Shown here: positions 13,058 through 19,394 of the stretch, one piece after another | How the letters are laid out: every line of letters begins with the position of its first letter | How positions within the stretch are numbered: position 1 is the stretch's first letter | DNA from: Verrucomicrobiia bacterium | GTDB lineage: Bacteria; Verrucomicrobiota; Verrucomicrobiia; Limisphaerales; Pedosphaeraceae | Reading direction: 5' to 3' | DNA: 64,000 nucleotides | NCBI GenBank assembly: GCA_036268055.1 | Contig: DATAUW010000012.1 | Coordinates: forward strand, 248,001 to 312,000 | Notes under the pieces: model-generated | Database searches by the model: none | What the model saw: only the letters and a program-made list of their open reading frames with translations | What the model was told of the DNA's origin: nothing | Made by a program: the position numbers and the translations under genes

Positions 13058-13085
13058 TTGACAAGCTGGTGCCAAAATGGCACCA
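13058..13085 (+). promoter_or_regulatory. TA operon promoter -35 and operator palindrome
   Basis: A perfect -35 TTGACA (13058-13063) is followed directly by the inverted repeat TGGTGCC-AAAAT-GGCACCA (13067-13085), which ends 7 bases before the antitoxin ATG at 13093. Position and symmetry fit autorepression by the antitoxin. The -10 is not obvious. Confidence 0.55.
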
Positions 13086-13092
13086 TTCAGGC

Positions 13093-13377
13093 ATGGCGGA
13101 AGTCATTGAAGAATCTCGAAAAAGGATTACGGCCCGGGTTTCTGACAAGGTGCGGGACACGCTGGAGCAGGCGTCGGAGCTTTTGGGCGCGACGGTGAAT
13201 CAGTTTGTGGTCCAAACAGCTTATGTGGAAGCGCAGCGGGTCATTGAGCGGGAATCGGTCATCCGGCTTTCGCAGAAGGACGCGCGCAAAGTGCTGGCGC
13301 TGCTGGATCATCCGCCGAAACCCAACAAGCGGCTCAAGGCGGCGGTAAAGGCGTTCAAAGGCGCGGTGCGTGCGTAA
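13093..13377 (+). CDS. DUF1778 (TacA-like) antitoxin
   Basis: A 94-residue protein from the ATG at 13093 (an earlier GTG at 13069 would run through the operator). The N-terminal ribbon-helix-helix (SRKRITARVSDKVRDTLEQASELLGATVNQFVVQTAYVEA) is the DUF1778 signature of antitoxins that bind DNA and, through the C-terminal tail, neutralise GNAT acetyltransferase toxins of the TacT type. It overlaps the toxin gene by 8 bases, so the two are translationally coupled. The operator palindrome just upstream supports autoregulation. Confidence 0.85.
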   Translation: MAEVIEESRKRITARVSDKVRDTLEQASELLGATVNQFVVQTAYVEAQRVIERESVIRLSQKDARKVLALLDHPPKPNKRLKAAVKAFKGAVRA

Positions 13378-13885
13378 GATCGAACTGCTCGCGAAGTCGC
13401 ATGACCGGGAGGGGTTCGATTGCGGAAGCGAGCCGCTTAATTTGTTTCTCAAACAAACGGCCCGTCAACACGCGGAGCGGGGAATTTCACGCACGTTTGT
13501 TTTGGTGGAGAAAACCGAGTCCGCGCCCAAACCCATTCTCGGTTTTTTCTCACTTAACATTTGCCAGATCAAATCGGAATCGCTGACGGTGGGAGAGGCG
13601 AAAAAACTGCCGCGCGACGTGGCGGGTGTCAGGCTGGGGCGGCTGGCGGTGGCCAAAGAAAATCAACGGCAAGGGATTGGAAAAATATTGCTGGTGGCGG
13701 CGATGGGGAAGTTCATGGAGATTTTCGATTCGGCGGGAGGGATTGGACTGTTTGTGGATGCGAAGGATGGAGACGCAAAAAGTTACTATGAACAATTTGG
13801 ATTCGTCGCGATGCCATCCAATGAGCTGGAATTATTTTTGCCGGTGAAAACGATTCGGGAGGCGCTGGGGACAAGGGGCGGTTGA
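13370..13885 (+). CDS. GNAT acetyltransferase toxin (TacT-like)
   Basis: A 171-residue GCN5-type N-acetyltransferase beginning at GTG 13370. The hallmarks of TA-associated GNATs are present: FDCGSEPLNLFLKQTARQH near the start, the acetyl-CoA-binding segment VRLGRLAVAKENQRQGIGKILL (R/Q-x-x-G-x-G), and the YYEQFGFVAM tail with the conserved Tyr. TacT toxins acetylate the amino group of charged tRNAs and stop translation. All key motifs are intact, so the module looks functional, unlike the two decayed modules in this window. Confidence 0.87.
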   Translation: MRKIELLAKSHDREGFDCGSEPLNLFLKQTARQHAERGISRTFVLVEKTESAPKPILGFFSLNICQIKSESLTVGEAKKLPRDVAGVRLGRLAVAKENQRQGIGKILLVAAMGKFMEIFDSAGGIGLFVDAKDGDAKSYYEQFGFVAMPSNELELFLPVKTIREALGTRGG

Positions 13886-16764: not shown

Positions 16765-17808
16765 TTAGTAATCTGACGCAGAATTAAACCAACTCAAGTC
16801 GCGTCCGATTAATAGTTCGGTCATTTTCGCATGGTGTGTGTTTTTCATCGCAATGGGTTTGGCCTGAAATCCAAACTCTGCGGCGAGTATCGCGACTTCG
16901 GGAGTGTTGTCGTAGGTCATGAGGAAATCGCCCTTGCAGACTCGCATTGCCGCAAATAATCGGCGATGGTCAATCTGCCATTTTGTGTAGAGACGCCGCG
17001 CCGCGAGTGTGTATGGTGGGTCAATAAAAAAGACCGCATCTTTGTCAGCTCTCTGTTCTTCAAGGAGAACGAATCCGTCACCCTCTACAAATGTTAGTCG
17101 ATCTTTAAGGTGATTTATTTCCCGAATCCGACGCGCAAGCGTTTCAGGATACCACCGGGACATAAGTCCTCGACCATTTTCGCCCGCTTTGACCAGACCC
17201 GCTCCAGCAGCCATAATTCCACCGCGTTGAACACGATTGCGTAGAATCGTCTGAAACGCTTTTTCGCGAACTGATTCAATTGATGCGTCAAGAACTCTGC
17301 GAACATTCTCTATTGAGAGTTCAAAGCCTAGGATCTCATTCGCGAGCCACTCTGCATGTCCGTTTAACACAACACGCCAAACAGCTGCTACTCCGGAATC
17401 AAGCTCAGCGAAGACTACATGTTTCGCCAAACGTTCAAACGCCACTGTGAGACTTACAATGCCGCCGCCGGCAAATGGCTCTATGAAGCGAGTCGGCAAT
17501 TTCGATTTGCTCTGAAGCCAGTCCCGAAGATACGGAATGAACCAAGTCTTGCCGCCAGGGTATCGAAATGGGCTCCGCTGCGGAACACTCGCGACGTTGA
17601 TGGGCTGGTCTGAAGTATAGCGAACCCGGCGTTGCGGAGCGGCTTCCAAAAACAAGCCATTGGGTTCCTCTCGAACACAGAAACTGCCCGCCGCGTCGAG
17701 ATGGTGGGCGATGTCTAGAAGATCATTCGCCATCCGAGCTGGTACCCGGATAACGGTAGTTTTGCCCGAGGTCCATTTCCTAGGAAAGGTAGTTGAAGAG
17801 CGGCCCAT
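16765..17808 (-). CDS. D12-class (Dam-type) N6-adenine DNA methyltransferase
   Basis: A 347-residue methylase of the D12/Dam alpha class: FRYPGGK (residues 81-87), EPFAGGG (110-116, S-adenosylmethionine site) and the catalytic DPPY (263-266, FIDPPYT). It transfers a methyl group to adenine N6 in a specific DNA site. The first 75 residues are an extra N-terminal part (WTSGKTTVIRVPARMANDLLDIA...) that resembles nothing in Dam and may form a small DNA-binding or AbrB-like module. It is divergent from a NotI-family endonuclease 144 bases away, so it is almost surely the protective methylase of a restriction system. Composition is poorer in GC than neighbours. Confidence 0.88.
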   Translation of the reverse strand: MGRSSTTFPRKWTSGKTTVIRVPARMANDLLDIAHHLDAAGSFCVREEPNGLFLEAAPQRRVRYTSDQPINVASVPQRSPFRYPGGKTWFIPYLRDWLQSKSKLPTRFIEPFAGGGIVSLTVAFERLAKHVVFAELDSGVAAVWRVVLNGHAEWLANEILGFELSIENVRRVLDASIESVREKAFQTILRNRVQRGGIMAAGAGLVKAGENGRGLMSRWYPETLARRIREINHLKDRLTFVEGDGFVLLEEQRADKDAVFFIDPPYTLAARRLYTKWQIDHRRLFAAMRVCKGDFLMTYDNTPEVAILAAEFGFQAKPIAMKNTHHAKMTELLIGRDLSWFNSASDY

Positions 17809-17844
17809 GCGACGAAATCTAGTACATCAACTGCCCGGAGTCAA

Positions 17845-17874
17845 CCCTGTAACAGGGCTATTATCCGTGTTACA
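17845..17874. promoter_or_regulatory. Inverted repeats between methylase and endonuclease genes
   Basis: The shared promoter region has CCCTG-TAA-CAGGG (17845-17857) and a wider TGTAAC (17848-17853) / GTTACA (17869-17874) pair. Such symmetry is what a controller or methylase autoregulator would bind. No controller (C) gene is present. Confidence 0.45.
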
Positions 17875-17952
17875 TCTCAATTATTGGCCATACCGCTGTG
17901 ACTTTCGAAGCTTTAGGCTCGCTCTTGTGACGGGACTGTTGAAAATAATTGC

Positions 17953-18786
17953 ATGGCTTTCAAAATTACGGAAGTTTTCGGCTACTCCGTGGAAGACAAG
18001 AGTCCGGAAGCAATTGCTTCACGGGTGGAGAAACCATGTCCCTTTCAGTTGCCTGGAATGCCTTGCACCAAGGTCAGTAAATCTGACCCTTTGGGTGTCT
18101 GCATGTTCGGCGACTCTCAAATCGGCACCCCTGTTTGCCCGATCCGTTTTGTTCAGAACGGTCAGATGTTTGTAGATGTCGCGAGGGCTGCGTTTGGCAC
18201 CGGACGAAAGATTGTTATCCGTCCCGAGTTACGGATTTTACGAAAGGAAAATGGCAAAAAGGCAGGCAAAGTCGACTACATTATCGGTTTGCTCGGTGAA
18301 GATGGAAAGCCTGCTGATTTCTGCGCTCTCGAAGTCCAAGCAGTTTATGTGTCTGGGAATTCCTATTATCCGATGTTCCATGAATTCCTCAACACGGGCA
18401 TCCCACCTCACGAGCAAAGGGGTATGGATTGGCTTTCTAGCCGCAAGCGCCTAATCTACCAACTCAATCTCAAAGTACCAGTTTTTCGTCGCTGGGGCAA
18501 AAAATTCTTTGTTGCGGTAGACCAACAGTTTTTCAAGGCGCTTCCCAAAATGAAACGCGTTCCTGACATCGAGAACAGTGAGGTGACGTGGGTGCTTTAC
18601 GATTTCAAACGCCGGGATAAGGGCGCACGGTTCAGCATGAGCCCCGCAGAATTTTACTGCACCGAATGGGCAGACGTTGAGGTAGCTTTACGCGAGGGAG
18701 TTCCGCCAAAACAAATGGAAATCCTCAATGATGTTTACGCCGCGATGACGAGGAAGCAACGGCCAATAACGGCGATTGACATTTAG
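17953..18786 (+). CDS. NotI-family type II restriction endonuclease
   Basis: A 277-residue protein resembling NotI. Residues 1-62 give ITEVFGYSVEDKSPEA and a four-cysteine set (Cys29, 38, 50, 62; CPFQLPGMPC, PLGVC, PVCPIRF), as in the iron-binding Cys4 site of NotI. The nuclease core follows with Asp108 (KVDYII), Glu127 and Gln129 (ALEVQAVYVSG), the PD-(D/E)xK variant with Gln used by NotI. It cuts unmethylated DNA at a specific site, not predictable here. The partner is an adenine methylase, whereas NotI is paired with a cytosine-N4 methylase, so the site should contain an A. Start ATG 17953. Confidence 0.75.
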   Translation: MAFKITEVFGYSVEDKSPEAIASRVEKPCPFQLPGMPCTKVSKSDPLGVCMFGDSQIGTPVCPIRFVQNGQMFVDVARAAFGTGRKIVIRPELRILRKENGKKAGKVDYIIGLLGEDGKPADFCALEVQAVYVSGNSYYPMFHEFLNTGIPPHEQRGMDWLSSRKRLIYQLNLKVPVFRRWGKKFFVAVDQQFFKALPKMKRVPDIENSEVTWVLYDFKRRDKGARFSMSPAEFYCTEWADVEVALREGVPPKQMEILNDVYAAMTRKQRPITAIDI

Positions 18787-18821
18787 CTTTGCCAGCATCA
18801 TTCATAACACCATTCTCTTGA

Positions 18822-19046
18822 CTAACAATAAACCTTACCCGACTCGATATTCCGTCAACCCGACCGCTGCTTGACCTGAATAATTATCGCTTCCATGATT
18901 TGCCGACTTACGGGGCGGTATCGAATCGCACGCGGTACGCGGAGGTGGGAGTTCAAGATCGTGCTTTAGAGCTTCTTCAAACAACCGATTCATTTGATTT
19001 GGAGAGCCTGAAGGATTCCATCAAGACAAACACCTATGCCGCTTGA
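18822..19046 (+). pseudogene. Unidentified gene remnant
   Basis: A stop-free stretch of 74 codons without a start codon reads like a natural C-terminus: LDIPSTRPLLDLNNYRFHDLP, then SNRTRYAEVGVQDRALELL and FDLESLKDSIKTNTYAA before TGA. It lies between the NotI-like gene and the broken Phd antitoxin module. The SNRTRY...ALELL...FDLESLKD pattern is faintly like the end of C45-family acyltransferases, but too short to assign. Confidence 0.35.
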
Positions 19047-19103
19047 GTGGGAATGTGCTTATGATAAAATGGTTAGTGACTGGTTAATTTGAAAAAGGTG
19101 AAT

Positions 19104-19394
19104 ATGGCAAGTATCTCAGTTCTTGATGCAAAAACTCGCTTTGGTGAGTTGCTCGAAAGGGTCGCGCAGGGTGAGGAGGTGGTGATCACCAAGCACGACA
19201 AGCCGGTGGCGCGCATCATCCCGGAGGGGCGTTCGTCTGCCAAATCCATTCGGGAAGCGGTGGCTTCGATTCGGGAGTTGCGCGGGCGGATCGAAGCCCG
19301 GACGAAGGGCAAATCAAAGCTTTCATTGGATGACGTCAAATCGGCGCGGGGCGAGGGCCGCAAGTCAGCGGTTCGTGGGTGGTGGATGCTATAG
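19104..19394 (+). CDS. Phd/YefM-type antitoxin with read-through tail
   Basis: A 96-residue product from the ATG at 19104, preceded by AAAAAGGTG; a TTG at 19089 is less likely. ASISVLDAKTRFGELLERVAQGEEVVITKHDKPVARIIP is the Phd/YefM family signature (DNA-binding antitoxins of VapC/Doc/RelE toxins). After ARGEGRK the frame continues SAVRGWWML, unlike relatives, which stop here. A one-base change would restore a GTGA overlap at 19364-19367 (now GTCA): TGA would end the antitoxin and GTG would start the toxin. The toxin downstream is a stub, so this is an orphan of a broken module. Confidence 0.78.
   Translation: MASISVLDAKTRFGELLERVAQGEEVVITKHDKPVARIIPEGRSSAKSIREAVASIRELRGRIEARTKGKSKLSLDDVKSARGEGRKSAVRGWWML

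Follow-up and report, generated by a model that had tools for sequence, protein, structure and literature searches.

The gene pair and its surroundings

The stretch of 64,000 nucleotides analysed here (the window) belongs to a Verrucomicrobiia bacterium with a genome of 5.1 Mb and contains a methyltransferase gene (16765-17808, minus strand) and, in divergent orientation, an endonuclease gene, separated by an intergenic gap of 144 bp (Table 1). Both genes are intact and lie where the initial annotation had placed them. The decayed neighbourhood noticed there is represented by a truncated ParB-like gene, to which we assign no part in the mechanism. In L029, one of the related loci (numbered here with the prefix L), the ParB-like protein is whole (~370 aa) and stands beside the same restriction-modification (R-M) system, followed by an Mrr-type (Mrr_cat) gene, and the R-M system therefore probably sat in a defence island. 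The L029 protein matches the PADLOC model PDC-M38A (1e-46) and, weakly, the PD-Lambda-5_A models.

The two genes had initially been described as AT-rich. Their GC content (51% and 49%) is indeed lower than that of the window (55%), as is their third-position GC content (0.48 and 0.54) compared with the neighbouring genes (0.67-0.80), but the bias is mild. The DNA similarity between the window and L029 (79%) is confined to positions 16775-19051, and the similarity to L030 and L031 is restricted to the R-M system. That similarity to all three loci ends at or close to the edges of the system agrees with the horizontal transfer proposed at first. The acquisition is probably recent, and in a methylated host of this kind little avoidance of the recognition site would be expected. 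Elsewhere in the window, a gene for a TacA1-like antitoxin (PF08681) is followed by one for a GNAT acetyltransferase (13069-13885), probably a toxin-antitoxin pair of the TacAT type, and a Phd/YefM-type antitoxin is encoded at 19089-19394.

Table 1 Features of the R-M locus in the window and palindromes in three other loci
Feature	Position	Strand	Basis
NotI-family restriction endonuclease, 277 aa	17953..18786	+	PF12183; NotI fold; C29/C38/C50/C62, D108, E127, Q129
Dam-class (D12) N6-adenine methyltransferase core, residues 69-347, RYPGGK and DPPY motifs	16765..17604	-	PF02086 3e-11; fold Z 20-23
Methylase N-terminal extension, residues 1-68, proposed DNA-binding autorepressor domain	17605..17808	-	conserved in 16 other loci
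Putative operator O1, CCCTGTAACAGGG (= CCCTGTTACAGGG on the methylase strand)	17845..17857	.	conservation, single genomic copy
Putative degenerate second operator O2, AGATGTAACACGG on the methylase strand	17865..17877	.	20 bp from O1
Putative methylase promoter: -35 TTGACT adjoining O1, 17-bp spacer, -10 TAGATT	17816..17844	-	consensus scan
ParB-like gene remnant, 70 codons	18828..19037	+	tblastn 79% identity over 70 residues, E 3e-34, vs L029 protein
CCGTGAATGTTCACGG-type palindromes	L014 5015-5067; L015 2795-2927; L116 upstream of methylase		

The endonuclease belongs to the NotI family

The endonuclease matches the Pfam family PF12183 (NotI) with an E value of 1.8e-41 (142.5 bits, cut-off 22). 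Its AlphaFold model (pLDDT 92) resembles both NotI structures, with Z 19.7 to 3c25 (266 residues, rmsd 5.2, 17% structural identity) and Z 18.5 to 3bvq (265 residues), while the best unrelated PDB entry reached Z 7.1. A profile built from 10 endonuclease relatives recovered NotI (3bvq, E 7.7e-4); a profile from 25 endonucleases did not. NotI was likewise absent from the Foldseek list of PDB entries with E < 0.001, which is uninformative because the structural comparison gave NotI the Z score of 19.7. None of this places the protein elsewhere, and the initial assignment to the NotI family stands. The four cysteines and the D...E-x-Q residues picked out at first (Table 1) are intact and invariant across 25 relatives; when more relatives were compared, the second cysteine was missing from L025, and L027 was incomplete. 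In NotI, the cysteines form a Cys4 iron site and the catalytic lysine is replaced by glutamine (PMC4081073). The fold, the four metal-site cysteines and the D...ExQ active site are thus common to the two enzymes, and the chain described here is shorter.

The methyltransferase core is Dam-like

The divergent gene encodes a D12-class adenine methylase, as first proposed: it matches PF02086 and contains both motifs of Table 1, and the model of residues 76-340 has the Dam fold, with Z 23.2 to 7m6b, 21.1 to E. coli Dam and 20.5 to DpnM. It was considered as Dam proper and rejected as such, since its score against NCBIfam TIGR00571 (41.4 bits) is far below the curated cut-off of 114.85; the enzyme is Dam-like. 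Among the PADLOC models, the one nearest to the core is PD-Lambda-5_B (1.8e-43), a component of PD-lambda-5, which Vassallo et al. (2022, PMC9519451) presented as a compacted RM+Abi system. Identity with PD-lambda-5 was also rejected, because only the B component is matched, whereas the endonuclease has no match to any PD-Lambda-5 model, A included, and just the ParB-like remnant lies nearby. The methylase probably protects the recognition site by N6-adenine methylation, and it is a fair inference that this site contains adenine.

NotI-type endonucleases are frequently paired with Dam-type methylases

According to the initial annotation, the partner of NotI itself is a cytosine-N4 methylase, unlike the Dam-class adenine methylase and the presumably adenine-containing site of the system in the window, and the pairing was regarded there as unusual. 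This view did not survive comparison. When 84,980 species genomes were scanned with the methylase and the best 80 genome-contig relatives were kept, a NotI-type gene was present in the locus in 68 of these 80 (within 500 bp in 67), across many phyla. On viral contigs, 11 of 14 close methylase relatives also had a NotI-type gene in the locus; a search of viral contigs with the endonuclease alone found no relative. The plasmid methylases closest to that of the window (52% identity), from Thermus, Aeromonas, Variovorax, Burkholderia and Achromobacter, are annotated next to NotI-family genes as well. Within the phylum of the window, a methylase of the same type occurs in five of the eight other NotI loci. 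Further NotI relatives are partnered by C5 methylases or by one of the N4/N6 type. In the literature searched, none of the characterised NotI-family R-M systems had a methylase of the Dam type. The family would be a source of numerous rare-cutting endonuclease candidates, each inherited together with its methylase.

Within one endonuclease lineage (82-85% identity), the partners are a C5 methylase and Vsr in L013, from Paraburkholderia, but a Dam-type methylase in the Achromobacter and Aeromonas loci L014 and L015, which indicates an exchange of partners across methylation chemistries. Because it is found with both C5 and Dam-type partners, the recognition site of this lineage should contain both C and A, provided that all its members cut the same site.

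An N-terminal extension defines one methylase clade

The extra N-terminal part of the methylase noted at first comprises 68 residues, and its amino-acid sequence is conserved in 16 other loci (L029-L044). It is confined to a single methylase clade (support 0.989), formed by the window and these loci, mostly from Verrucomicrobiota MAGs, with others labelled Nitrospira, Spirochaetales and Paceibacterota. Its consensus reads M(A/G)RSSTTYPRKWxSGKTTVIRVPxxLADxLLxIARRLD. Searches of Pfam and PHROG returned no family for the extension, searches of PDB sequences no significant match and a search of 388 genomes of the phylum no significant further copy of the domain. A profile comparison with AmrZ (3qoq) remained at chance level (E 0.54). 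The monomer model, of low confidence in this region, has one helix (residues 24-40) and a hairpin, with a strand-like RVP segment before the helix; a classical ribbon-helix-helix would have a second helix, which the model does not clearly show, and such a fold is a guess.

Cyanobacterial plasmids and a cyanophage encode small, unnamed stand-alone relatives of the domain, 64-136 residues long (L167-L177). They share the motif KWxxGxTxxIRVP and, unlike the domain in the window, have no attached methylase. The promoters of some of them contain palindromes of the TTGTnACAA type, such as CACTTGTCACAAGTG and TCTATTGTTACAATAGA, and in several others there is no clear palindrome, nothing rising above shuffled sequence.

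A conserved palindrome accompanies the extension

The symmetry that the initial annotation had placed at 17845-17874, upstream of the methylase gene, consists of the 13-bp palindrome O1 and the degenerate copy O2, and a controller gene is absent, as had also been remarked. The suggestion that the methylase itself binds its promoter gained strong comparative backing. In all 16 testable loci with the extension (the window, L029-L042 and L044; L043 is cut off), one of two palindromes, CCCTGTTACAGGG or CCCNNGTAACNNGGG, precedes the methylase start by at most 60 bp, and neither occupies this position in any of 85 loci without the extension, although these are not 101 independent events, since the extended methylases form one clade. 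In the 85 loci, the palindromes match twice in ~0.6 Mb, both times outside R-M promoters. The 13-bp type CCCTGTTACAGGG occurs in ten loci (the window and L029-L037, with one mismatch in L036) and the 15-bp type CCCNNGTAACNNGGG in six (L038-L042 and L044); most of the relatives are metagenome-assembled contigs.

In eight aligned loci of the 13-bp type, the operator is 100% identical and the flanks are 23-34% identical, which is near chance. In these eight loci, O1 is directly followed by the -35-like TTGAC (with one extra base in L037), and in most loci of this type a second, weaker copy of the palindrome lies 20-21 bp further upstream. The locus could be an ordinary NotI-type R-M system whose extension and promoter symmetry are unremarkable, as the common pairing and the typical enzymes would allow, but an operator conserved against randomised flanks makes this highly improbable.

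Operator and extended methylase have been kept together despite endonucleases of different lineages and gene orders that are divergent, convergent or tandem. In the convergent systems, the operator is present at the methylase promoter only. The endonuclease gene is missing from L031, where operator and methylase are retained; there, the similarity to the window's DNA begins inside O2, at 17874. It is unlikely that the palindrome is a structural element or a site for some regulator of the host, and that the extension is an unrelated module for DNA specificity or dimerisation. What is said of the extension's fold and function is a prediction, which leaves room for this, but extension and operator occur together on contigs binned to several phyla, relatives without the extension lack the operator, and some of the stand-alone homologues, with no methylase to assist, have related palindromes in their promoters.

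By pattern search, the 13-mer occurs once in the 5.1-Mb genome of the window. Across 388 genomes of the phylum there are 12 other matches, no more than expected by chance, and none of them is near such a methylase.

A second extension and a second palindrome

The methylases of L014, L015 and the viral contig L116 have a common extension (RRIERLKEQGVTRATVLVHNECKPALEGLRHHF...) that is unrelated to that of the window, and CCGTGAATGTTCACGG-type palindromes are located upstream of these methylase genes (two copies each in L014 and L015). The palindrome CTCCGTGAATGTTCACGGAG of L015 is the candidate counterpart of its extension. These loci appear to represent an independent parallel case, with a domain and a palindrome of their own in another methylase branch.

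These results also bear on the idea that the palindrome is the methylation target of the methylase, so that promoter methylation sets expression. Control of this kind is known for CfrBI (PMC3874152), and the palindrome of the window does contain adenines. However, the 13-mer is present only once in 5.1 Mb, the palindrome is absent from methylases with the same core and no extension, the 13-bp and 15-bp types differ in their outer bases, and the second branch combines an unrelated extension with an unrelated palindrome; we therefore regard a methylation target as quite improbable.

A methylase that would repress its own gene

R-M systems that enter a cell must make the methylase before the endonuclease, and to our knowledge the timing in systems without a controller gene is mostly unexplained. 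We consider it likely that the window contains a complete, horizontally acquired type II R-M system in which the Dam-type methylase represses its own transcription. The sequences show the homologies, the intact active-site residues, the pairing of the genes, the conservation of domain and operator and the uniqueness of the operator, whereas DNA binding, dimerisation, repression, enzymatic activity and the nature of the recognition site are inferred. In the proposed scheme, the NotI-family enzyme would cut a palindromic and probably rare site wherever it is unmodified, and the Dam-type methylase would protect this site, probably by N6-adenine methylation. Residues 1-68 of the methylase would be the built-in controller, a small, probably dimeric DNA-binding domain, perhaps with a ribbon-helix-helix-like fold. 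The dimer would occupy O1 and, through co-operative binding, also O2, a weaker site at a distance of two helical turns. The -35 element of the methylase promoter (promoters were assigned by consensus only) adjoins O1 directly, and binding should therefore shut the methylase gene down once there is sufficient enzyme. Methylase would be abundant when the system arrives in a new host and restricted later, which would keep foreign DNA from being protected as well. With the divergent gene order of the window, the endonuclease promoter may also be affected.

The extended methylase might instead activate its promoter in a positive loop resembling C-protein circuits in their early phase, and the 13-bp type, with O1 just upstream of the -35 element and O2 20 bp further up, has its operators in positions compatible with an activator. 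In L039 and L044, however, the operator lies between the -35 and -10 elements (promoters assigned by eye), and in L033 and L042 an operator copy adjoins the start codon; at such positions a block of the polymerase is expected, and repression is favoured over activation for this reason. The -35 boxes are, moreover, already near consensus, and the characterised methylase-linked regulators repress their own gene (PMC12707154; PMC3874152). Activation thus seems unlikely, and we retain repression as the working model.

Comparison with known regulated systems

Methylases that act as regulators have been described before. Residues 1-71 of M.SsoII regulate transcription (PMC3978073), and M.Ecl18kI and M.EcoRII are further examples (PMC12707154; PMC3874152); these are C5 methylases with helix-turn-helix domains. 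As in M.SsoII, M.Ecl18kI, M.EcoRII and M.MspI, an N-terminal region of ~70 residues is proposed here to bind an operator in its own promoter, and as in Ecl18kI the genes are divergent. The SsoII-type features of a ~70-residue extension absent from simple relatives and of a conserved promoter palindrome are both present in the window. Membership of this type was nevertheless rejected: the characterised SsoII-type enzymes are C5-cytosine methylases with a helix-turn-helix, whereas the core here is of the D12 class and fused to an unrelated, unnamed domain without a family match, so that the system would work like the SsoII type and not be a member of it. The NotI-type partner endonucleases are a further difference from the characterised C5 methylases with fused repressors. 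Type II R-M systems controlled by C proteins resemble the window in having a small DNA-binding regulator (with binding proposed here) and palindromes at R-M promoters. Unlike in those systems, there is no separate C gene, the regulator lies within the methylase, and convergent relatives have the operator only at the methylase promoter.

For a widespread R-M family, a regulator built into the adenine methylase and acting on a defined operator is a candidate answer to the problem of timing. If true, the fused-repressor principle, which reviews document for C5 methylases, would extend to Dam-type enzymes, and an unnamed small protein family would gain a function. With somewhat less confidence, yet still as the favoured reading, we propose that residues 1-68 represent an undescribed autorepressor family, stand-alone on cyanobacterial plasmids and fused here to a Dam-type methylase; that domain and operator form a portable module kept through endonuclease exchange; and that a second, unrelated domain with its operator arose in parallel (L014, L015 and L116). 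NotI-type R-M systems would then have met the need for a controller within the methylase itself on at least two occasions. Among the stand-alone relatives (L167-L177), several have repeated operator-like elements on both sides of the promoter.
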